A DNA stretch of 64,000 nt from Synechococcus sp. PROS-9-1. Lineage in GTDB: Bacteria > Cyanobacteriota > Cyanobacteriia > PCC-6307 > Cyanobiaceae. Location: the NCBI RefSeq assembly GCF_014279775.1, contig NZ_CP047961.1:1984001-2048000 (forward strand), in the 5' to 3' direction. This document shows, one piece after another, positions 30,972 to 41,327 of this stretch (position 1 is its first letter; each line of letters starts with the position of its first letter). A program made the position numbers and the translations under genes. The notes beneath the pieces were generated by a model. That model ran no database searches and was not told the origin of the DNA. It saw only the letters and a list, made by a program, of their open reading frames with translations.

Positions 30972-32579
30972 TCAGAAAACGAACGTAGTCTTAATCATTC
31001 CGCCGAAGCTGTTGAAGCTATCGCCGTCGGTGACCGTGCTGTCCTTGTCTCCACCAAGAGGACGACTGAAGTAGTGAACTGCAGGCGTCACAGAAATGTT
31101 GTCGGTGACTTGGAAGTTGTAGAACAGCTCGAAAGCATAGTTCCCATCAGCAACGAAATCATCACTGGAGTTTTTCTTATCGATGCTGGTCACGAAAGTT
31201 GGCTGACCAACTGCAAATCCAAGTGCATTACCTTCAAGGAATGCATCATCCCATTGAAGACCTACGTACCAAGACTGGGACGTTGAGGATTCAAGAACAG
31301 ATCCATCATAAGTAATTCCGTTACCATCAGCTGAACTATTGGTGGAATTAATACCCCAACCAGCACTGACAGAAGGAATAATTCCAGTTTCCTCAGGCAT
31401 CCACCAAGCACTTAAAGCTGCTGAGTTTGTTACCCCATTAGCCTGAAGTTTGTTGGCCAAAGGAGTGCCGTTGCCGCTATAAAGGCCAACACCATTGTCA
31501 GTGGAACCGTAGTTGTAGGCAACAGCTACACCCCATTGCTCAGGAGCATAGGAGAGCTGAACGGTTCCGTTTGAGCCAGCACCATCAGTTGCGATACCAC
31601 CAGTATCGGGATCGGAACCGTTGCCATTGGTGCTGAGATAGCTTGCGCTGATATTGAAATCATCTTTAGACCAAATGACTCCAGCACCAGCACCTAAAGC
31701 AAGGTTGTAGGCACCTGGAGCGCCTGCATAGGTGAAGAAATCAACAGTCATAGCTGCTGGATAAGCAGCAGGCCACACTGCCAACATGTCATCCTGACGA
31801 ACCATTGGGCCACCAGTGAAGGTGAACTCATCTGCTACAGGGAACTGATAAAAGAGCCTGTCGAGTTCCAGGTTATTACCAGTTTGATATCCATACTCTT
31901 GACTCCATAGTCCAACTACTCCATTTCCAGCATAAACATCTGAAATGTTTGCAGAACGGAGACGAGTTCTCAGGAGGTCTTCACCAGTGAAACTGGTATC
32001 AAGGAAGATTCTCAGATCATAAGAAAATGATGTGGCACCATCTGCTTTGTCAGTGGCATCTCCTAAGTCTCCACCAGCTGGATTCTTTGCATCACCACCA
32101 TAAGTAGTAGCACCAAGAGCCCAGAAGGAATTAACCGTCATCTTGGTGGTGGTGGAGAACTGCTGAGCTTCCAGTTCACCAACTTTGGCTTCAAGTCCGT
32201 CAACACGGCCCTTGAGGATGGCGAGTTCTTTAGAGAACTCTTTCATCAGCATTTTCAGCTCGTCGGTCACTTCAGTGACGCGGTCGAGACATGCGTTCAA
32301 CAGAGCAGCCGCTTCAAAGCGGGTCATTGCCCTGTTACCGCGGAAGGTGCCGTTGGGGTAACCAGCAACACAGCCGTAGCGCTCTACCAGGTTGCCAAGA
32401 GCCTGATAAGCCCAATCGGTTGGGTAAACGTCTGAAAACTGAGTGATGCTGGTGACTTGCTCGCCTGTGGCGGCGTAGTCAGATACACCGTTGAAGTTCA
32501 GCTCAGTGGCGTTAGCAGCCATAGGAGCCAAAAGGCCCAAGGCAGCTGGGGCCACCAGCAGTTGATGGAAAAGTTTCAT
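30972..32579 (-). CDS. SLH-domain OprB-like outer-membrane porin
   Basis: A 535-residue precursor with a signal peptide (MKLFHQLLVAPAALGLLAPM then ANATELN), one S-layer homology domain (QFSDVYPTDWAYQALGNLV, then ERYGCVAGYPNGTFRGNRA, about residues 47-90), a coiled coil (MKEFSKELAILKGRVDGLEA), and a long beta-rich barrel with OprB-like repeats. It matches the SomA/SomB group, the dominant outer-membrane porins of Synechococcus; the SLH part anchors to peptidoglycan and the barrel lets small solutes through. Ends in F-V-F as expected for barrel insertion. A strong terminator follows. Confidence 0.93.
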   Translation of the reverse strand: MKLFHQLLVAPAALGLLAPMAANATELNFNGVSDYAATGEQVTSITQFSDVYPTDWAYQALGNLVERYGCVAGYPNGTFRGNRAMTRFEAAALLNACLDRVTEVTDELKMLMKEFSKELAILKGRVDGLEAKVGELEAQQFSTTTKMTVNSFWALGATTYGGDAKNPAGGDLGDATDKADGATSFSYDLRIFLDTSFTGEDLLRTRLRSANISDVYAGNGVVGLWSQEYGYQTGNNLELDRLFYQFPVADEFTFTGGPMVRQDDMLAVWPAAYPAAMTVDFFTYAGAPGAYNLALGAGAGVIWSKDDFNISASYLSTNGNGSDPDTGGIATDGAGSNGTVQLSYAPEQWGVAVAYNYGSTDNGVGLYSGNGTPLANKLQANGVTNSAALSAWWMPEETGIIPSVSAGWGINSTNSSADGNGITYDGSVLESSTSQSWYVGLQWDDAFLEGNALGFAVGQPTFVTSIDKKNSSDDFVADGNYAFELFYNFQVTDNISVTPAVHYFSRPLGGDKDSTVTDGDSFNSFGGMIKTTFVF

Positions 32580-32793: not shown

Positions 32794-34485
32794 GTGCGGT
32801 TTCCCTTCACCATCATCAAAGTCCTGAGGTGGCCGCGCTCTCCTCAGATGAAAGATTTTTGCACCAACCGGCGCATCGTCATTGCTGCGCTGATCTTTGC
32901 AGTCATTGCACTGCTACTTCAGGCTTGGCGCTCCCATGTACTCCTTGCCAGTTACGACCAAGGCATTTTTCAGCAAGTGTTGTGGAACAGCCTGCGGGGA
33001 CACCCCTTTGAGAGCACGCTCTCCTCACAGCTCTCCACCAATGTGATCCACAGCGGTGAACCACCAGGCTTGGGCTATGCGCGATTAGGCCAACATTTCA
33101 CCCCCTCCCTACTCCTTTGGGCGCCTTTGTTCGCGTTGATCGGAGGTGCTGCACTTCCCCTTGTACAAGTGGGGCTCATTGTCTCTGCAGGGTTATTCCT
33201 CCATCGACTCGCCCTTCAACTCGTTCCAGCAAGGACGGCGAACTGGCTGACGTATGGGTTTTACGGAGGGAATGCACTGATCGGACCCACGCTGGGAAAT
33301 TTCACTGATCTCTGCCAGCTTCCCGTCGCTGTTTTTGCCTTGATGTTGGGTCTTCAGAGGCGAATGGGATGGTTGATCCTGAGCGCCGCTGTTCTGATCC
33401 CGCTTATTCGAGAAGACACGGGCATCATGCTGATTGCCATCGGACTGTGGTTGCTCTTTCGAGAACCCAAACGATGGCCCATCGCGATTGCCCTCATCAT
33501 CTGGGGTGCTGGATGGATGGTGCTGGTCACGAATGCATTGATGCCGCTGTTCTCGGAGGACAACAGCAAGCGATTCATGGTGGAAAACTTTGGCCAATAT
33601 CTCGATGTGGATCCGAGCGAAGGAGCGAGCAGCCTTTCCGTATTGCAACAGGCTTTGGGCCAACCATTCATCCTTCTCAAGGAACTTTTCTCCCCCCCAG
33701 GGAAAACTTTCTTGTACCTCCTGGGGCATGGCCTCCCATTTCTGATGGTGCCGCTGATCAGCCTCGATGCATGGATCCTTGCGGGCCCATCACTCCTTGG
33801 CTTGTTTCTGGCCCAAGGCAGCAATGACCCGCTTTCGATCACCATTCGCTACACGCTGCTTGTGGTGCCAGGCTTCAGCCTCGGAGCACTGCTCTGGTGG
33901 AGCCGTCGCCAGCAACAAATCCCCGGCCGCGGAACGCGTCTGGCATGGGGAATCGCCATCAGCCTTTCTCTTCTGCTCACCGTGAGCAGCAACCCCCACC
34001 GAAGCCTTTCGTGGATTATTCCTGACAGCGTTAGGCCAATAGTTTTTAGCAGTCCTATTCGGCAATGGGAACACGGTCGGGATGCGCGCCAAGTTCTGAA
34101 TCTGATCCCTAAAGACGCATCCGTGAGCGCTAACACACCCCTCGTCCCTTTAATCGCTCGACGTGAGGTGGCAGTGCGTTATCCCAAATCGCTGCATTAC
34201 CTCGACCGCAACAAGAACAAACTTGCGGTGGATTGGATCGCCGTCGATCTCGACTGGTTAGAGCGCTACAGCGTGGCCTTTCGCGGTGATTGGCGTGCGC
34301 TGAAACGCATCAAGCAGGAATTACCAAGACAAATGGACGCCTACCGAGTGCAAGCGATCGAGAATGGTATCGCTGTTTTGCAACGTGACGGACCTCAAAA
34401 GCTTGCGTTGGAGAGGCAATTGCGAAAACGGCTAGCGACTCCTATGGCACCTGACCCAAGCCAACCATCCAACAACAAATCCTAA
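32794..34485 (+). CDS. DUF2079 membrane protein, copy A
   Basis: A 563-residue polytopic protein of the DUF2079 family, about eleven membrane helices, distantly like GT39-type glycosyltransferases. Conserved blocks are ASYDQGIFQQVLWNSLRGHP, FTDLCQLP, LIREDTGI and SKRFMVENFGQYL. The first start is GTG at 32794 and an ATG at 32848 (MKDFCTNRR) is a reasonable alternative. Function is unknown; relatives are linked to polysaccharide or protein glycosylation. It is about 60% alike in its blocks to copy B (36498-38126) and shares with it a 64-base stretch identical at DNA level. Confidence 0.8.
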   Translation: MRFPFTIIKVLRWPRSPQMKDFCTNRRIVIAALIFAVIALLLQAWRSHVLLASYDQGIFQQVLWNSLRGHPFESTLSSQLSTNVIHSGEPPGLGYARLGQHFTPSLLLWAPLFALIGGAALPLVQVGLIVSAGLFLHRLALQLVPARTANWLTYGFYGGNALIGPTLGNFTDLCQLPVAVFALMLGLQRRMGWLILSAAVLIPLIREDTGIMLIAIGLWLLFREPKRWPIAIALIIWGAGWMVLVTNALMPLFSEDNSKRFMVENFGQYLDVDPSEGASSLSVLQQALGQPFILLKELFSPPGKTFLYLLGHGLPFLMVPLISLDAWILAGPSLLGLFLAQGSNDPLSITIRYTLLVVPGFSLGALLWWSRRQQQIPGRGTRLAWGIAISLSLLLTVSSNPHRSLSWIIPDSVRPIVFSSPIRQWEHGRDARQVLNLIPKDASVSANTPLVPLIARREVAVRYPKSLHYLDRNKNKLAVDWIAVDLDWLERYSVAFRGDWRALKRIKQELPRQMDAYRVQAIENGIAVLQRDGPQKLALERQLRKRLATPMAPDPSQPSNNKS

Positions 34486-34492
34486 AACGATA

Positions 34493-34517
34493 CCCCCGAC
34501 CAGAAACTGGCCGGGGG
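34493..34517 (-). terminator. Terminator-like hairpin after the micro-ORF, copy 1
   Basis: Strong hairpin with an 11-base arm CCCCCGACCAG (34493-34503), a 3-base loop and CTGGCCGGGGG, with one mismatch. On the minus strand it is followed by TATCGTTTT, so it could end a minus-strand transcript coming from the micro-ORF at 34574-34684; it also sits just after the DUF2079 copy A stop and may serve both strands. A matching hairpin stands at 39826-39853. Confidence 0.6.
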
Positions 34518-34573
34518 CTCTCGCCGGGTCCGCTCTGGCGCGGAACCGATTGATCAGTCAAAAGAAAATGCCG

Positions 34574-34684
34574 TCAGCCGGCGTTCTCCGCGATCAGCAG
34601 ACCCTGGGTCAAACAACTGGAACTCATGGACACCTCCTCCTGGATGGATAAATGAACGCCGGCGATGCATTCGATCTCATTCAT
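34574..34684 (-). CDS. Micro-ORF, duplicated element copy 1
   Basis: A 36-codon frame, MNEIECIAGVHLSIQEEVS then MSSSCLTQGLLIAENAG. The inner ATG at 34627 has an excellent GGAGGTGT ribosome-binding site five bases before it, so a 17-residue peptide is the more likely product. A second copy (39906-40006) matches it; all three differences inside the two coding-like blocks are third-codon-position changes (ATC/ATT, ACC/ACT, CTG/CTT). That supports past or present selection for a peptide. No family is recognised. The outer start overlaps the CATG of the divergent GT39-like gene. Confidence 0.5.
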   Translation of the reverse strand: MNEIECIAGVHLSIQEEVSMSSSCLTQGLLIAENAG

Positions 34685-36281
34685 GGACCCGAAGGTTGAG
34701 GATGAGACCACATCACTGCGATCTAGTCCTTTGAAAGATAACGGACGCTGGGAGGTTCCGTCAGTGCCATTGCCGCTTTTGCTCTGGTTGCTCACCCTGC
34801 TGATTTGGCTCCCTTGGCTGGGCAATCTGCCGTTACGAGATTGGGATGAAGCTCTAGTTGCAGGAGTCTCCCGTTCCACCGCAGCACAACCGGCTTGGGA
34901 CTGGCTACTAGCCATGAAAAACAGTGAGTCGATTTACCTCAACAAACCACCAGGACTGCACTGGCTGATCGGTGCATCGATCAAGCGATTTGGAGACGAC
35001 GAATGGGCCGTACGCCTAATACCAAGTCTTCTTGCCAGCTTGGCCGTTCCACTCATCGTGATCCTGCGACGCCAACTCAGCAATGGAACAGGGACTGAGC
35101 GCTCCGCCCTTTGTTCCGGTTTGATCCTGATGACCCTTTTGCCCATGGCACGCCATGGGCGGCTGGCGATGTTGGACGGGACGCTTGTGAGCTGCAGTTT
35201 GCTACTAATCAGCGGTTGGCTCAGCAGCAAACGCTGGCCTTGGCATGGCTTGCTTGCTGGATTGGGAGGGAGCGGCATCTTGCTCCTGAAGCCACCAGCC
35301 CTGATTGGTTACTTGGCCATAGTTGGGATCATCACCCTTTTCGACAAACCCTCCAGCAGAAAGACTTCAGCCTTGGGCTGGGCGATCAGCGGCCTGATCC
35401 CAGGAGCGATCTGGCACCTCTGGCACTTTGGGCAGCGCGGCAGCAATGCACTCTTGATGTGGGGAGGCCAAGGGTTTAGTCGCGTAACAGAGGTCCTCGG
35501 CGACAAGAGTGGGGCCTGGGTGATGCCACTAACGGAAGTTCTTGAGGGGGGATGGCCCTGGATCCTGCTCCTACCTAGTGGCGTGTACTGGGCATGGCGC
35601 CATCGGAAAACCTCTACTGGCTTATGGGAACTAGGCCTTCTAGCCGGTAGCGCGCTGATGGTGTTGCCCTTACAGACCCAGTTGCCTTGGTATAGCCACC
35701 TCCTCTGGCCACCTATCGCCCTTCTATGCGGAGAAACCCTGGCTGGACTCCTAAAGGAGGGTCGCCCCCACTGGATCCCACAAGCCTGGCAATGGATCGG
35801 AGCTCTCCTCCTGATCAGCACTACGGTTCTGCTGGCGATGAACACCAGCGCAGCACTTCCATTGCCAGCCTTGGTTGCCGCAGGCCTTGGCTTGATCATC
35901 GGCGGGCTGAAGCTCTCGAAGCCCCTACAGCTTTCACGCCAGCAGGGGCTCGCCGTGGTGGTCACGGGTTGGAGCCTTGGGCTTCTTGCACTGTGGCACA
36001 GCCATCTATGGCTATGGGAACTGAATGAAAGCTGGGATCCCAGGCCTGTCGCAGCACAGATCCGATTGCTCCCTCCTGATGCAATTGTGATGCTGGACGG
36101 ATCTACACGCCCCTCACTGAATTGGTATGCCAAACATTCTCTACAAGAATTAAATACCAGTACGCCAAAGGAGTTTTGGCTCGTAAGCGAGCAATCCCGT
36201 CAAGGCTGCACAAACATATCCGTCGATCCAAAAGCGACTGATTGGCACCTCTGGCATTGTTTTTCCTTTGACCAACCATGA
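34683..36281 (+). CDS. GT39-like membrane glycosyltransferase, second copy
   Basis: A 532-residue ArnT/PMT-like protein with about ten hydrophobic helices. The first lumenal loop has the acidic pair RDWDEALVAGVSRSTA, typical of polyprenyl-phosphate-sugar transferases, and KNSESIYLNKPPGLHWLIGA provides the conserved KPP motif of ArnT. The substrate is unknown. The ATG at 34683 (MDPKVEDE) is chosen; a start at 34665 (MHSISF) would run through the repeat block. It lies between DUF2079 copy A and the DUF2079 remnant, suggesting a cell-surface glycosylation cluster. Confidence 0.85.
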   Translation: MDPKVEDETTSLRSSPLKDNGRWEVPSVPLPLLLWLLTLLIWLPWLGNLPLRDWDEALVAGVSRSTAAQPAWDWLLAMKNSESIYLNKPPGLHWLIGASIKRFGDDEWAVRLIPSLLASLAVPLIVILRRQLSNGTGTERSALCSGLILMTLLPMARHGRLAMLDGTLVSCSLLLISGWLSSKRWPWHGLLAGLGGSGILLLKPPALIGYLAIVGIITLFDKPSSRKTSALGWAISGLIPGAIWHLWHFGQRGSNALLMWGGQGFSRVTEVLGDKSGAWVMPLTEVLEGGWPWILLLPSGVYWAWRHRKTSTGLWELGLLAGSALMVLPLQTQLPWYSHLLWPPIALLCGETLAGLLKEGRPHWIPQAWQWIGALLLISTTVLLAMNTSAALPLPALVAAGLGLIIGGLKLSKPLQLSRQQGLAVVVTGWSLGLLALWHSHLWLWELNESWDPRPVAAQIRLLPPDAIVMLDGSTRPSLNWYAKHSLQELNTSTPKEFWLVSEQSRQGCTNISVDPKATDWHLWHCFSFDQP

Positions 36282-36307
36282 ACACCACGCCATCCGCACG
36301 CCTTTGA

Positions 36308-36490
36308 TGGGCATCCTTATCCTCTTGCGTGGCATTCCTTGGTTGGGGAGTAGCGGCTTCGCGCCATTAGCTGATTCTGAGCAATGCTTACGATCTAGGC
36401 CTGTTTGAGCAATGGGCCTGGATCATCGGCAATGGGCCACTACCCATATCTTCGATGGAAGAAGTTCATGTCCTGGCTGATCATGATGGA
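36308..36490 (+). pseudogene. DUF2079 remnant
   Basis: Translating this stretch in the frame of base 36308 gives ...CVAFLGWGVAASRH, a TAG stop at 36368, then LILSNAYDLGLFEQWAWIIG and NGPLPISSMEEVHVLADHDG. This is the N-terminal part of a DUF2079 protein (compare SSALRHLWLQSNGFDLGIYD in copy C). A stop codon lies inside and the rest of the protein is missing, because copy B begins directly after. It is therefore a truncated duplicate. Only part of it shows up as an open frame. Confidence 0.7.
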
Positions 36491-36497
36491 AGACTCC

Positions 36498-38126
36498 ATG
36501 GCAACATTTCAGGCCAACGAGAGCCGACCAGCCGAACAATCCCAGCGGCGGGTGTTGCTAGCTGCAGGACTGTTCTTAATTGTCGGCTGCGCTCTTCAGT
36601 GGTGGCGGTTGCAGTCCCTCACAGCCTCCATGGACCAGGGAATCCTGATGCAGGTCCTCTGGAACGGGCTGCGTGGACACCCCTTTGAGAGCACGCTCTC
36701 CTCACAGCTCTCCACCAATGTGATCCACAGCGGTGAACTGCCAAGCCTCGGCTACCACCGCCTCGGTCAGCACTTCACACCGATCCTGGCGCTGTGGATC
36801 CCTCTTGTGGGTCTACTTGGGAAGTGGGCCCTACCGATGCTGCAGGTGGTCCTGATCACGGCCGCTGGACTTGTACTACATCGACTCGCAACGAAACATC
36901 TCAAGCCTGAGCTAGCTGCGATGGTATCGATCGCGTTCTACTGCGCGAATGCGGTGATCGCACCCTGCATGCTCGCCAATTTCACCGATCTCAGTCAGCT
37001 GCCGCTGTGTGTGTTTTTGCTGTTGCTGGGGCTTGAGCAACAACAACTCTGGCTAACGATCGCGGCAGCCCTAGTCATCCCTCTGATTCGTGAGGACACA
37101 GGAGTTGTGCTGATGGGCATAGGCCTTTGGCTTGGCTTGCGCCGTTCCGGACGCTGGCCCCTGGCCGCAACGCTGATCCTCTTCGGAGGGGCGTGGGTGG
37201 CCATAACCACCAATCTCTTAATGCCCATGTTCAGCGCCGACAGCTCTCAGCGATTCATGGTGGAGAACTTCGGCCAGTACCTGGAGGGTCGCAATCAGGC
37301 CAGCAGCCTTGAGGTACTAGGACTAGCGCTACGCCAACCCCTAATCCTGGTCCGCGAGCTGGTGACGCCACCGGGAGTCACCATCACCTATCTAATAGCG
37401 CAAGGCCTGCCACTGATCATGGTGCCCTTCCTCTCGATAGACAGCTGGCTGTTGATGGGACTCCCGCTGCTGGGGCTAATGCTGGCTCAGGGATTCAATA
37501 ATCCTCTGTCCATCAGCATCCGCTACACCTACTTGGTTGTTCCAGGCCTATTTGCTGGAGCAATTTTCTGGTGGCAAGAACGTCAGGCCCTATTCGAATC
37601 ACGGCGACTGCGACGGATCTGGGCTGGAGCTCTTGCACTGTCTTGCTTCTTCACCGTGACGGGCAATCCCAACAAGAGCCTTTCTTGGATAATTCCAGAC
37701 AGCATCCAGCCCTGGATCTATCGCAATCCTATGGAGCAGCTCCGCCACGGGAACAAAGCCCTTGACTTGATTCAGCGCATCCCTAAGGGCAGCAGAGTCG
37801 CTGCCACCACAGGGTTAATACCCCACCTAGCCGATCGTGAAGTGCTGATTCGTTTCCCTTATCACTACCAATTTCAAGACAAGGATGGGAATCCTGATTT
37901 TGTTGATTGGGTAGCGGTAGACATGCACAACCAAAAACTTTTTCAGACGTACAGCAAACAGAGAAGAGGGCTACTGGGCAATCTCCGTGAACTCGATGAT
38001 CTACTGAATCAGGGCTACGGCGTCATGGCTTTCGACGACGACGTGGTGTTATTACAACGGAATGCTTCGGGAGATAACGAAGCTCAAAAAGCATTCGAAC
38101 GTTTCTCTAAAACAGTGCAACGTTGA
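36498..38126 (+). CDS. DUF2079 membrane protein, copy B
   Basis: A 542-residue DUF2079 protein from ATG 36498 (MATFQANESRP); ATG 36486 is also possible. It has about ten helices and the same blocks as copy A: ASMDQGILMQVLWNGLRGHP, FTDLSQLPL, LIREDTGV and SQRFMVENFGQYL. The open frame reaches 36405, but that part is the out-of-frame translation of a remnant of another DUF2079 gene and should not be counted. The sequence 36675-36738 is identical to 32998-33061 of copy A over 64 bases, including third codon positions, suggesting recent gene conversion. Confidence 0.82.
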   Translation: MATFQANESRPAEQSQRRVLLAAGLFLIVGCALQWWRLQSLTASMDQGILMQVLWNGLRGHPFESTLSSQLSTNVIHSGELPSLGYHRLGQHFTPILALWIPLVGLLGKWALPMLQVVLITAAGLVLHRLATKHLKPELAAMVSIAFYCANAVIAPCMLANFTDLSQLPLCVFLLLLGLEQQQLWLTIAAALVIPLIREDTGVVLMGIGLWLGLRRSGRWPLAATLILFGGAWVAITTNLLMPMFSADSSQRFMVENFGQYLEGRNQASSLEVLGLALRQPLILVRELVTPPGVTITYLIAQGLPLIMVPFLSIDSWLLMGLPLLGLMLAQGFNNPLSISIRYTYLVVPGLFAGAIFWWQERQALFESRRLRRIWAGALALSCFFTVTGNPNKSLSWIIPDSIQPWIYRNPMEQLRHGNKALDLIQRIPKGSRVAATTGLIPHLADREVLIRFPYHYQFQDKDGNPDFVDWVAVDMHNQKLFQTYSKQRRGLLGNLRELDDLLNQGYGVMAFDDDVVLLQRNASGDNEAQKAFERFSKTVQR

Positions 38127-38346
38127 TCAAGGCATTCCGATTTACAGCCAAAAAAGCTTCCCGCTAAGACGTGCTGATAATCTCAGTTTCCTTTAGATCT
38201 GCAGTGTCTATCTAGGCCTCATCCTTTAGCGACACTTTGATAAAGGGTCAAACTGAATCACAGCACTCGGTCCAATCGCTTCTTTCTTAGACCCCATAGA
38301 GAAACTCACGAGCGATCTCTGCTGTAGCGAGCACTGATTAGCAACA

Positions 38347-39840
38347 TTGGATTTTAATTTTTCATCCTGCCGGTTCTGCTCAGTTCTTCTTTTCCCTGAA
38401 ACCTTGACGTATTCCGCAAGGACCAACTTCCGACGTCAACTCACGACCTCACTAATAGTGGGCCTGGTGTGGTGGCTCAGTTCAGCTCTAAGACATCTTT
38501 GGCTGCAAAGTAATGGCTTCGACCTAGGGATTTACGACCAGGTTGCATGGCAGATCAGCCGTGGACTTGAGCCCCGCTCCTCCCTGCTGGGCTTGCATCA
38601 CATGGGTAACCACGGAGCGTGGGCTTTCTATGCAATCGGGGCTGCTTACTACCTATGGCCCAGCATCCAATGGCTACTAGCCAGTCAAGCTCTGAGCCTT
38701 GCACTCACCGCGTTGCCTCTTGCAGCTCTCTGGCGACAGGCTCGTTTACCAGAGCGCCTCAGCTGGCTGCCCTGCTTGCTGTGGTGGCTACAGCCGCAAG
38801 TTTTTAATACCAACCTTTTTGATTTTCACCCAGAGGTTTGGGCGATGCCTGCCTTGGCAGGTTGCATCTGGTGCAGTCGTGCGCAAAAGCCCTTGCCATG
38901 GCTGCTGTGCCTTCTTTGGCTACTTGGCTGCCGTGACGGCTTAGCTCTTGTAGTGATCGGACTGGGGTTGTCAGAGCTAGTTCAGCGACGATGGTGCTGG
39001 GGACTTTTTGCAATTGCGCTTGGTTTGGGCTGGATGCTTTCGCTTAGCGAATGGCTTTATCCCTGGCTTAATGGCCCTGACCAAGGACCGGCCGCCTTAA
39101 GCAGATTCAGCAGTCTTGGAGACAGTATTCCTTCAATTCTTATAGGCAGCCTGCAAAGGCCATGGGTCTTGGTGGACGTAGTGCCCTGGCAGGAACTGCC
39201 CATCTATGTAGTGCTGATCTCAGTCCCAACAGCTTTATTCTGGCGGCGAAATTCCCTAACAGTTCTACTTACTGCTCTACCACTTTGGTTAGTGAATTTG
39301 ATCTCCAGCAACGGTGCCCAACGTAACTTGGTGCATCATTACAATTTACCTCTAGCTGTGATTGCAGTGGTCGCTGCAATTGATGGACTACAAACAAGCG
39401 GATGTAGAGCGTGGCCCTGGCGCCGTTTAGCTTGGTCTGCCGTTTGCTGGGCAGCACTCGCAAAGCCATGGTTCTTTAGCGGGCATTACCTCAGCAGAGT
39501 GGATCAACTTACTGACGTGAATGAAGCATTGCGGCGAATACCAGCAGAAAGTCGAGTAATAACCACTAGCCATTTAGCTCCGCAGCTGACGCATCGGCTC
39601 CAGATAGAAGCAATCGGCCGGAACCCGTTAAATCAGAGACGCCTTGATCGTTTCGATGTAATGCTGCTCAATCCGTCTGACCCTGGTTGGCAATCAGGGA
39701 GCTCTGTTCAGAGCAAGGCTTTGCAGCTTGCGAAAGGGGATAATTGGTATTGCCAAAGCTGGAAAAGCGGGCTTGAACTTTGCAGGAAACTTGAGGAAGT
39801 AAGCGATTCAACCGATCAAAACGATGCCCCCGATTCTTAA
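38347..39840 (+). CDS. DUF2079 membrane protein, copy C
   Basis: A 497-residue protein with about eleven helices. It carries the more canonical DUF2079 blocks NGFDLGIYDQVAWQISRGLE, HHMGNHGAWAFYAIGAAYYL and LFDFHPEVWAMP. The frame starts with TTG at 38347; a later TTG or GTG nearer residue 20-35 is possible because the first 20 residues are unlike membrane protein. It is clearly more divergent from copies A and B than those are from each other. The last codons run into the hairpin of the second copy of the micro-ORF element. Confidence 0.75.
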   Translation: MDFNFSSCRFCSVLLFPETLTYSARTNFRRQLTTSLIVGLVWWLSSALRHLWLQSNGFDLGIYDQVAWQISRGLEPRSSLLGLHHMGNHGAWAFYAIGAAYYLWPSIQWLLASQALSLALTALPLAALWRQARLPERLSWLPCLLWWLQPQVFNTNLFDFHPEVWAMPALAGCIWCSRAQKPLPWLLCLLWLLGCRDGLALVVIGLGLSELVQRRWCWGLFAIALGLGWMLSLSEWLYPWLNGPDQGPAALSRFSSLGDSIPSILIGSLQRPWVLVDVVPWQELPIYVVLISVPTALFWRRNSLTVLLTALPLWLVNLISSNGAQRNLVHHYNLPLAVIAVVAAIDGLQTSGCRAWPWRRLAWSAVCWAALAKPWFFSGHYLSRVDQLTDVNEALRRIPAESRVITTSHLAPQLTHRLQIEAIGRNPLNQRRLDRFDVMLLNPSDPGWQSGSSVQSKALQLAKGDNWYCQSWKSGLELCRKLEEVSDSTDQNDAPDS

Positions 39841-39853
39841 AGCAATCGGGGGC
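39826..39853 (-). terminator. Terminator-like hairpin after the micro-ORF element, copy 2
   Basis: A perfect 10-bp stem GCCCCCGATT/AATCGGGGGC with an 8-base loop. On the minus strand it is followed by ATCGTTTT, the same tail as in copy 1. It overlaps the last codons of DUF2079 copy C, where GCCCCCGATTCT codes for APDS. Confidence 0.6.
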
Positions 39854-39905
39854 TCTCGCCAGGACAGCTTTATCGCGGAACCAATTGATCTAGGAACTAG
39901 ACGCC

Positions 39906-40006
39906 TTAACTCAGACGTCCTTCCGCGATCAGAAGACCCTGAGTCAAAGTACTAAATCATGAGCCAATTTTCAGGAAGGGGAAATGATCGGCCGGCAATG
40001 CATTCG
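39906..40006 (-). pseudogene. Micro-ORF, duplicated element copy 2 (frameshifted)
   Basis: Homologous to the micro-ORF at 34574-34684. Block GAATGCATTGCCGGC and block CTGATCGCGGA are kept, but the distance between them is two bases shorter (42 against 44), which puts LTQGLLIAEGRLS out of frame with ECIAG and places TAG two codons after the ATG. The strong ribosome-binding site of copy 1 is absent. Copy 2 thus looks like a decayed duplicate, though a shorter peptide from TTG cannot be excluded. Confidence 0.5.
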
Positions 40007-40009
40007 CTT

Positions 40010-40204
40010 TTAGCACTAAAAGTACAAAAACCAACAAAAAGACAAAAACTACATCAAAAATTCCCAAATAAATATTTACCAAAAGAACTCAAGCATAATC
40101 TTTAAGCAAATCAACCATGAAACAAAGAGCTGGGACTTGATCATCTTTTAGAACTATTCACTTACAACTTAGAGACAGCAAGAGAGAACCTTTGGCGAGG
40201 CAAA
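40010..40204. other. AT-rich gap downstream of psbD
   Basis: About 195 bases of low-complexity A-rich sequence between the second micro-ORF element and the psbD terminator. No convincing ORF, tRNA or motif was seen. Confidence 0.5.
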
Positions 40205-40233
40205 CAAAAAAACGCCCAAATTAATGAGCGTTT
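40205..40233 (-). terminator. Rho-independent terminator of psbD
   Basis: On the minus strand AAACGC pairs with GCGTTT across a loop of about twelve bases, with an extra C-G pair after one mismatch, and the 3' arm runs straight into a stretch of seven T. It is about 40 bases after the psbD stop codon. Confidence 0.7.
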
Positions 40234-40271
40234 AAAGAGATTAAGAAAAGGACTTGAAATTCTTGACTCAA

Positions 40272-41327
40272 TCAGAGAGCGTTTCCACGGGGCAGAACCT
40301 CTTCAGGGAAGACGAAGTTTTCGTGCGGCTGATCAGCCGGTGCCATCCAGGCACGCAGACCTTCATTCAGAAGAATGTTCTTCGTGTAGAAGGTTTCAAA
40401 TTCAGGATCCTCAGCAGCGCGGATTTCCTGTGACACGAAGTCATAGGCACGCAAGTTGAGTGCAAGGCCGATGATGCCGATGGAACTGGTCCACAAGCCC
40501 ATCACTGGCACAAACAGCATGAAGAAGTGCAGCCAACGCTTGTTGGAGAACGCAATTCCGAAGATTTGGCTCCAGAAACGGTTGGCGGTAACCATTGAAT
40601 AGGTCTCTTCTTCTTGGGTGGGTTCGAACGCCTTAAAGGTGTTCGACTGTTCACCATCCTCAAAAAGGGTGTTTTCCACGGTCGCGCCGTGAATGGCGCA
40701 AAGCAGTGCACCGCCAAGAATGCCGGCCACTCCCATCATGTGGAAGGGATTCAGGGTCCAGTTATGGAAGCCCTGGAGGAACAACAGGAAGCGGAAAATT
40801 GCAGCCACACCAAAGGAGGGTGCAAAGAACCAGCTGCTCTGTCCCAAGGGGTACATCAGGAAGACACTGACGAACACCGCAATCGGACCTGAGAAGGCGA
40901 TGGCGTTGTAAGGACGAATGCCGACGAGACGAGCAATTTCAAACTGACGCAGCATGAAGCCGATCAGTGCAAAGGCGCCGTGGAGAGCAACGAAAGCCCA
41001 GAGGCCTCCAAGCTGAATCCAGCGGACAAAATCACCCTGGGCTTCTGGGCCCCAGAGCAACAGCAAGCTGTGACCCATCGCATCAGCGGGGGTGGACACA
41101 GCAGCGGTCAAAAAGTTGCAACCCTCGAGGTAGGACGACGCAATGCCGTGGGTATACCAGGAAGTTACAAAAGTGGTTCCCGTTAACCAGCCACCAATCG
41201 AGAGGTAGGCCGTGGGAAGAAGGAGAATGCCGGACCAGCCGACAAAAACAAATCGGTCGCGTTTGAGCCAGTCATCGAGGACGTCGAACCATCCCCGCTG
41301 CGGCATGCGACCTGCAGCGATCGTCAT
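40272..41327 (-). CDS. psbD: Photosystem II D2 protein (stand-alone copy)
   Basis: Reaction centre protein D2 of photosystem II, 351 residues, five transmembrane helices. Seen are [20 protein letters not shown] at the N-terminus, the FHMMGVAG segment with the chlorophyll/iron histidine, [13 protein letters not shown], the plastoquinone-pocket [21 protein letters not shown] and the D2-specific C-terminus [12 protein letters not shown]. psbC normally overlaps the 3' end of psbD; here a terminator follows, so this is the second, stand-alone gene, often psbD2 in marine Synechococcus. About 185 bases upstream are non-coding and should carry the promoter. Confidence 0.96.

Follow-up and report, generated by a model that had tools for sequence, protein, structure and literature searches.

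Described relatives and the identity of the RNA

Two RNAs described from other cyanobacteria come closest to the element considered here. Sye_sRNA1 of Synechococcus elongatus UTEX 2973 runs at about 200 nt on Northern blots, is the most abundant sRNA of that strain under control conditions and has 53 homologues, which share a conserved fold and mostly have psbD or cobB on their upstream side (Tan et al. 2018, PMC6091082). The same account describes the Synechocystis 6803 homologue as incorporated into sll1501, reports homologues to be the most abundant transcripts of two Synechocystis strains, and finds the level of Sye_sRNA1 to be lowered early in high light, the dark response differing between two methods. 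For one of those strains, Synechocystis 6714, another sRNA, Ncr0700, has been named the most abundant (PMC5386190). The second RNA, ncl0160 of Synechocystis 6803 and Nostoc 7120, has a conserved ORF of 23-25 aa and 83 homologues, from a search that purposely omitted marine Prochlorococcus and Synechococcus (Brenes-Alvarez et al. 2016, PMC4734099). The accessible text of PMC6091082 and PMC4734099 gives no function for Sye_sRNA1 or ncl0160, and in the literature searched, mostly papers available without subscription, no earlier description of a picocyanobacterial branch was found.

The DNA analysed here is a window of 64,000 nt, bases 1984001-2048000 of the 2.27 Mb genome of Synechococcus sp. 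PROS-9-1, whose relatives are the picocyanobacteria (Cyanobiaceae). An initial annotation of this window pointed out a duplicated element on the minus strand and knew of no family to which it belonged. From its sequence, the better preserved of the two copies (copy 1) can be taken with very high confidence to be the picocyanobacterial form of Sye_sRNA1, almost surely ncl0160/TU475, an identification that rests on position, size, ORF and fold, the published RNAs being known here by description and not by their letters. The finding was real and its novelty overstated; its most useful part is an ORF that is kept without its amino acids.

Like Sye_sRNA1, the picocyanobacterial elements have a conserved fold, many of them follow psbD, and by their sequence they are putative stand-alone RNAs. 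They differ from it in that their 17-codon ORF uses another frame at the C-terminal end, their 5' hairpin domain is larger and their terminator differs in sequence, and copy 1, by its sequence, measures about 246 nt as against about 200 nt; the account of Sye_sRNA1, in its accessible text, describes no ORF and discusses no marine homologues (PMC6091082). The likeness of ncl0160 is to the loci found outside the Cyanobiaceae, which are also widely conserved and have a small ORF of similar size (23-25 aa in ncl0160) behind a ribosome-binding site; the stop codons noted for ncl0160, TAA, TAG and twice TGA, are as in our 36 loci outside the family. Its ORF of 23-25 codons contrasts with the 17 of the picocyanobacterial elements, although both have a ribosome-binding site (PMC4734099). 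Searches against Rfam 15 (4227 families) returned for both copies nothing but one hit at E 1.5, far below cut-off, and for the loci L200, L201, L203, L205 and L001 two chance-level hits, none of them on the element. Yfr6 and Yfr103 were ruled out as identities by neighbours, copy number and length, not by sequence: Yfr103 of marine picocyanobacteria is very abundant, 290-328 nt long and present as seven paralogues in CC9605 (PMC5069720), and is set apart, by this description, from an RNA of about 246 nt that is nearly always single.

The locus in Synechococcus sp. PROS-9-1

Copy 1, on the minus strand (34483..34728; all positions are those of the window), has the layout of an independent RNA gene some 246 nt long, from a promoter-like box to a terminator. 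Model R1, among whose 49 sequences copy 1 is included by construction, matches it over 34483-34727 with 214.8 bits (E 1.4e-57), and model R2, which is independent of the Cyanobiaceae, matches 34483-34662 with an E value of 4.3e-9. The fold z-score is -3.8, none of 200 shuffles being as good. The initial annotation had placed the elements correctly but gave them about 180 bases; the element is longer, probably begins near 34728 and includes a 5' domain absent from that annotation. About 7 bases 5' of this putative start the sequence has a -10-like box, TTATCTT (34735..34741), and a TANNNT box occurs within 24 bases 5' of the element in 76 of 83 family loci, compared with 40% of shuffled stretches. 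A mannosyltransferase-like gene on the plus strand has a longest ORF that starts at 34665 and runs across the 5' end and promoter of the RNA (34665-34741); the true start of that gene may lie further downstream.

Read 5' to 3' on the minus strand, copy 1 begins with a 5' domain (34654..34723), supported by covariation, which consists of the two-part helix P1 (P1a, P1b) and the variable hairpin P2 and contains a conserved internal loop, CGNANGC. A linker of about 12 nt leads to an extended Shine-Dalgarno site, AGGAGGAGGTG (34631..34641), recognised by its duplex with the 16S 3' end, and then, after the spacer TCC, comes an ATG that opens the 17-codon ORF MSSSCLTQGLLIAENAG, closed by TGA (34574..34627), its frame being kept in family loci. 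Downstream of the TGA lie the 3' half of a long hairpin, AB, and the terminator. AB (34526..34604) is identified by pairing and covariation and has two helices: in helix A the ORF strand 34596-34604 pairs with 34526-34534, and in helix B 34586-34592 pairs with 34539-34545. A local hairpin, P4 (34527..34547; 34540-34547 with 34527-34533), for which covariation is weak, is mutually exclusive with AB. The terminator hairpin, CCCCCGGCCAG...CTGGTCGGGGG with a TTTT tail, occupies 34484..34517.

Distribution among cyanobacteria

The element is not confined to this genome, and its absence from all others, which the initial annotation named as grounds for rejecting its reading, is contradicted. BLASTN with copy 1 found matches in 89 of 151 Cyanobiaceae genomes, and R1, built from the set A1 of 49 of the 83 extracted family sequences (picked for diversity and full length), found them in 203 of 400, including 146 of 251 good-quality genomes. 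Strict filters applied to all searches across more than 40 genomes; when twelve hitless family genomes (eleven of them of 1.6-1.9 Mb) were searched again with lax filters, only one fragment appeared, at E 0.34. The exact pattern of the ORF core was present in 79 stretches of named contigs, whose hosts are Synechococcus, Cyanobium, Vulcanococcus, Aphanothece, some Prochlorococcus and uncultured cyanobacteria, and no virus contig had it. A total of 169 element loci was assembled in this way, 90 from 89 genomes and 79 from named records, 22 of the latter repeating a core of the 90. One record titled as a Bifidobacterium breve MAG (L118) carries a cyanobacterial locus, and its contig has probably been misbinned.

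Homology runs in both directions between the Cyanobiaceae and the rest of the class. R1 matched six genomes of other families (E 1e-5 to 8e-3), each with a Shine-Dalgarno site and an ORF of 23 codons, or of 17 in two of them, L201 and L202. These two, with R1 E values of 3.4e-5 and 4.0e-5 and TGA as codon 18, are probably S. elongatus-like and, to judge from position and size, presumably hold Sye_sRNA1 itself. A BLASTN search with one outside element matched 171 of 291 genomes of the class. Its 30 best loci, together with L200-L205, make up the 36 outside loci, all of which have an ORF of 23 or 17 codons, the pattern used having demanded a Shine-Dalgarno site and a start. R2 was built from the set A2, 29 of these 36 sequences and none of the Cyanobiaceae; it returned to copy 1 and matched 245 of the 291 class genomes (121 of 130 genera), with a single match in nearly every one and two in G436, the 29 sequences matching R2, like the 49 matching R1, by construction. 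Ten divergent outside loci have an ORF of 17 (one), 23 (six) or 24 (three) codons. Among all the outside loci examined, 17 codons occur in L201, L202 and L251, and 23 or 24 in the others. Beyond the class R2 gave only two weak matches, L248 and L249, which were excluded as unproven. L249 has no start codon after its GGAGGTG. L248 (1473-1601), from another class of the phylum, has AAAGGAGGTGATGCC-TATG followed by a hydrophobic ORF of 23 codons and an R2 E value of 6.8e-5; no conserved hairpin was seen in it, and it is either a chance match or a very distant relative.

Fold and covariation

The compensatory changes proposed as a check by the initial annotation support a conserved structure. A 38-pair structure was examined in the 49 diverse family sequences, in which 93.0% of cells are standard pairs, 26 of the 38 pairs show compensatory changes on both sides and none of 500 shuffles reaches any of the five measures used, these and the other shuffle tests not being strict probabilities because the sequences are related. 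When the structure was slid along the sequences as a control, paired cells fell to 33-48%. P1 has compensatory changes in 11 of 12 pairs (96.4% of cells paired), P2 in 4 of 5 (86.1%) and the terminator hairpin in 6 of 9 (98.0%).

The second half of the 17-codon ORF is the 5' arm of the long hairpin. Among family members this arm pairs through GGGUCUGCU with AGCGGACCC and through CGCGGAG with UUCCGCG; 97.4% of the cells of AB are paired, with 0/500 shuffles as good, and changes on both sides are seen, in at least one sequence each, in 5 of 16 pairs, amounting to only seven cells. Compensatory changes are far more numerous in the same arms of the outside elements (GGGUC/GACCC and the helix above), whose consensus has 46 pairs, 17 of them with changes on both sides. 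The pairing of the ORF with the 3' half is therefore present in both branches. In L081 and L085 (genus g45) the 3' arm is shortened, the stretch before GGTTTCGCG being missing, and the ORF and terminator are kept.

For P4, 97.7% of cells are paired, but its pairing is partly automatic because it shares a strand with AB, and its covariation is weak, between 7 and 44 of 500 shuffles, depending on the measure, being as high. As an alternative hairpin valid for the whole phylum it finds no support, the outside counterpart failing because 2601 of 10000 shuffles do equally well. Of the 49 family sequences, 37 have the long hairpin in their predicted best fold and 11 have P4, and P4 is predicted to form in copy 1 when the ORF is held single-stranded. 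The long hairpin is established, but a switch between two states is a proposal only, because the covariation of P4 is weak, its letters are shared and its outside counterpart fails.

The reading frame and its ribosome-binding site

A Shine-Dalgarno site, an ATG or GTG and exactly 17 codons are found in 88 of the 90 family loci from 89 genomes, the exceptions being copy 2 and L083. In L083 (2006-2231) the Shine-Dalgarno site, start and terminator are kept but the loss of one base closes the ORF at codon 11, which may be decay, an error in a genome that is 71% complete, or an indication that the RNA can do without the complete frame. The named records add 79 loci, two of which (L153, L175) are cut by contig ends and 77 intact, a set biased toward intact ORFs by its selection with the exact core pattern. 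All 105 unique intact ORFs begin with ATG or GTG and have a stop as codon 18 (TGA 97, TAA 4, TAG 4), and no stop occurs among the 84 distinct codons at positions 2-7, for which the null mean is 2.77 and the probability of none 0.018. A functional translated ORF is on this showing likely, our confidence having been lowered slightly because the frame of L083 is closed. The 17-residue peptide proposed initially corresponds to this ORF, whereas the alternative of 36 residues is unlikely, the conserved Shine-Dalgarno site preceding the 17-codon start.

The strength of that site had also been judged correctly. The duplex of the copy 1 site with the 16S 3' end (GGATCACCTCCT, which occurs twice in the genome) has an energy of -19.1 kcal/mol. 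None of 52 mechanically called ORFs of the window reaches this value at its first start, where the median is -5.2 kcal/mol, and one does (the strongest, -24.5) once alternative starts up to codon 50 are considered. Duplex energies range from -14.3 to -19.6 kcal/mol in 164 family elements and from -17.7 to -21.3 kcal/mol in 36 outside elements.

Constraint on the frame does not seem to extend to the amino acids. The two copies share a 27-base block that differs at two bases, and the three differences within the ORF blocks (ACC/ACT, CTG/CTT, GAG/GAA) do all fall at third codon positions, as had been observed. The argument for a coding origin drawn from this pattern fails, because the synonymous share of codon differences among 104 unique picocyanobacterial ORFs is 0.145, equal to the column-shuffle null of 0.143, and because codon 17 varies most at position 2, its position 3 being nearly fixed; RNA pairing explains the pattern better. 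Outside the family the share is 0.177 (null 0.180), so that a synonymous excess was found in neither branch, by a test that is blind to selection on amino acids under the pairing of codons 8-17. Codon 13 changes from Ala to Val, Thr, Lys or Ser with a fixed third base, residues 2, 3, 6, 7 and 17 are very variable across the family, and the peptide, judged by eye against the membrane toxins of type I toxin-antitoxin systems, is short, variable and not membrane-like. Three 23-aa peptides had no match in Pfam/NCBIfam. It seems that frame and structure are kept and amino acids are not, translating, rather than the peptide, being conserved. The dual-function RNAs SgrS/SgrT, SR1 and RNAIII, as they are described, resemble copy 1 in joining a regulatory RNA to a short ORF. 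In those RNAs the sequence of the peptide matters and ORF and pairing region are mostly separate, unlike the picocyanobacterial elements, where the ORF supplies an arm of the main hairpin and the amino acids are not kept.

Gene neighbourhood and the second copy

The minus strand of the window keeps the order psbD, copy 2, copy 1, som porin, cysK; the genes that intervene on the other strand are of the DUF2079 and mannosyltransferase-like kinds. psbD, encoding photosystem II D2 (40272..41327, minus; TIGR01152, E 5.7e-230), lies directly upstream of copy 2, copy 1 itself not adjoining it, and the SomB-type porin gene (30972..32579, minus; NF033921 por_somb, E 2.7e-86; OprB and SLH domains) is downstream of copy 1 beyond a DUF2079 gene. 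The stretch between som and psbD, 32794-39840, contains three genes for DUF2079 membrane proteins and one for a dolichyl-phosphate-mannose-type transferase, which account for the distance between the RNA copies. As noted at the outset, both 3' ends stand tail to tail with a plus-strand DUF2079 gene (32794-34485 and 38347-39840), and other family members likewise have DUF2079 genes next to the RNA.

Elsewhere 44 of 88 family and 12 of 44 outside loci have a same-strand psbD upstream, counts that set no identity limit and may include a few distant matches to the related psbA, and 15 of 83 family and 26 of 43 outside loci have a same-strand Som/OprB porin downstream, no more than 1300 nt from the ORF start. 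L201 and L202 have psbD upstream and a som-type porin downstream, and CobB is upstream of L205. A pterin dehydratase gene is downstream in 15 of 43 outside loci, and neither neighbour is within reach in 35 of 83 family and 14 of 43 outside loci. This survey leaves aside copy 2, L207/L208 and L083, L207 being the same place as L205. In draft assemblies (L020, L023, L024, L040 and others) the contig frequently ends within psbD, some hundreds of bases ahead of the element, perhaps due to near-identical psbD copies.

Copy 2 (39817..40039, minus) is a decayed paralogue. BLASTN of copy 1 against its own genome found it at 72% identity over query bases 18-207 (E 9.1e-16) and gave no further real copy, the next match having an E value of 0.42, or 0.77 when R1 was used after copies 1 and 2. 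It retains the 27-base block and the terminator. The Shine-Dalgarno site is absent, the duplex with the anti-Shine-Dalgarno sequence reaching only -3.1 kcal/mol, and its ATG meets a stop after two codons (ATGATTTAG). Non-standard pairs appear, in the R1 alignment, in P1/P2 (4), P3 (3) and P4 (2), and part of P1 is broken. The two copies of the initial annotation are thus both present, but they are not equal partners (R1 gives 214.8 bits to copy 1 and 106.5 to copy 2), and the duplication, real in this genome, is incidental, since 199 of the 203 family genomes with an R1 match show one and only G000, G230, G307 and G342 show more. Copy 2 is not a fresh copy of copy 1, because copy 1 ranks only 19th of 165 elements by score against it and because G034, the genome with the element closest to copy 1, is without copy 2. 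It is best read as an old paralogue in decay, a relic that may well be functionless, and its site behind psbD is probably the ancestral place of the RNA. A 250-base stretch of 33% GC, in a window of 56% GC, separates it from psbD (40021-40271).

A possible mode of action and its alternatives

The explanation that fits best, which we hold with about even confidence, is that copy 1 is an RNA of the Sye_sRNA1 family with a translated 17-codon ORF and a fold gated by that translation, copy 2 being a relic. The RNA would be transcribed alone in this strain, from its own promoter to its own terminator. A ribosome would load at the extended Shine-Dalgarno site and read 17 codons (23 in most other cyanobacteria examined), and to do so would have to open the long hairpin, in which the second half of the ORF forms the 5' arm. 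The ribosome would in this way set the RNA in the cell between the long hairpin and an opened state, in the family perhaps with the local hairpin P4, and the state of the fold would in turn set the stability of the RNA or the binding partners of its 3' half, the peptide being largely a by-product. That translation acts as a switch is, taken by itself, possible though somewhat doubtful, and the high abundance reported for relatives is not accounted for by a switch alone.

The most serious alternative, which we nevertheless consider unlikely, is that the element is a micropeptide gene, a small mRNA in which the peptide of 17-23 residues is functional and the fold sets only stability and expression. 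It would suit this reading that 88 of 90 family loci, and the outside loci examined, keep frame, start, stop and length, and a conserved peptide of 23-25 aa has indeed been proposed for ncl0160 (Brenes-Alvarez et al. 2016, PMC4734099). It is opposed by a synonymous share equal to the null in both branches, by the five very variable residues in the family and by the C-terminal residues of L201 and of the family, which are read in different frames at the matching RNA motif GCCGGCTG. Quite improbable is a 30S decoy, an abundant RNA that titrates ribosomes through its extreme Shine-Dalgarno site and is freed of them by the short ORF: duplexes of -14.3 to -21.3 kcal/mol in 200 elements (164 and 36), against the median of -5.2 for 52 window ORFs, speak for it, and relatives are reported to be very abundant and lowered early in high light (PMC6091082), but a decoy needs neither a covarying long hairpin nor a kept stop codon.

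Very unlikely, too, is a cis-acting leader-peptide attenuator of a downstream porin gene. A leader ORF, possible competing hairpins and a terminator are all there, and a same-strand porin lies within 1300 nt of the ORF start in the proportions given above; the first porin match begins, however, 203 to 1097 nt from the ORF start, the terminator arm is part of neither alternative hairpin, and loci with a convergent next gene (copy 1, L250, L252) have the element all the same. The attenuator class as a whole was rejected on the like ground that no same-strand downstream gene is constant, the gene varying or being convergent. We give hardly any credence to a non-coding regulatory sRNA with an incidental ORF, which could appeal to publication of the RNA as an sRNA (PMC6091082), to the dominance of RNA-level constraint over the codons and to the closed frame of L083, but is opposed by 105 unique intact ORFs with only ATG or GTG as start and only TGA, TAA or TAG as codon 18, and by the lack of any stop among the 84 distinct codons 2-7. 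Least probable of all, to the point of being negligible, is a recent duplication, mobile or by chance, that has no function: the presence of two copies in this genome would agree with it, yet the fold is conserved, the element is nearly always single and occurs in 121 of 130 genera of the class sample, and copy 2 is not especially close to copy 1 (19th of 165). For copy 1 a reading as functionless duplication is already refuted.

Implications

Beyond the translated RNA that we prefer stands a bolder and rather unlikely possibility, namely that this RNA, among the most abundant sRNAs of cyanobacteria, is a ribosome-operated device, neither a base-pairing sRNA nor a peptide gene, in which an extreme Shine-Dalgarno site recruits a 30S subunit and reading of the ORF, itself an arm of the main hairpin, resets the fold; if true, it would serve most of the photosynthetic class of the phylum as a reporter or buffer of free ribosomes. 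The picocyanobacterial form adds a diverged branch to a known sRNA and makes the constraints on its fold and ORF readable, and the question of whether the molecule is an sRNA or a peptide gene becomes directly testable in a lineage of major ocean photosynthesisers.
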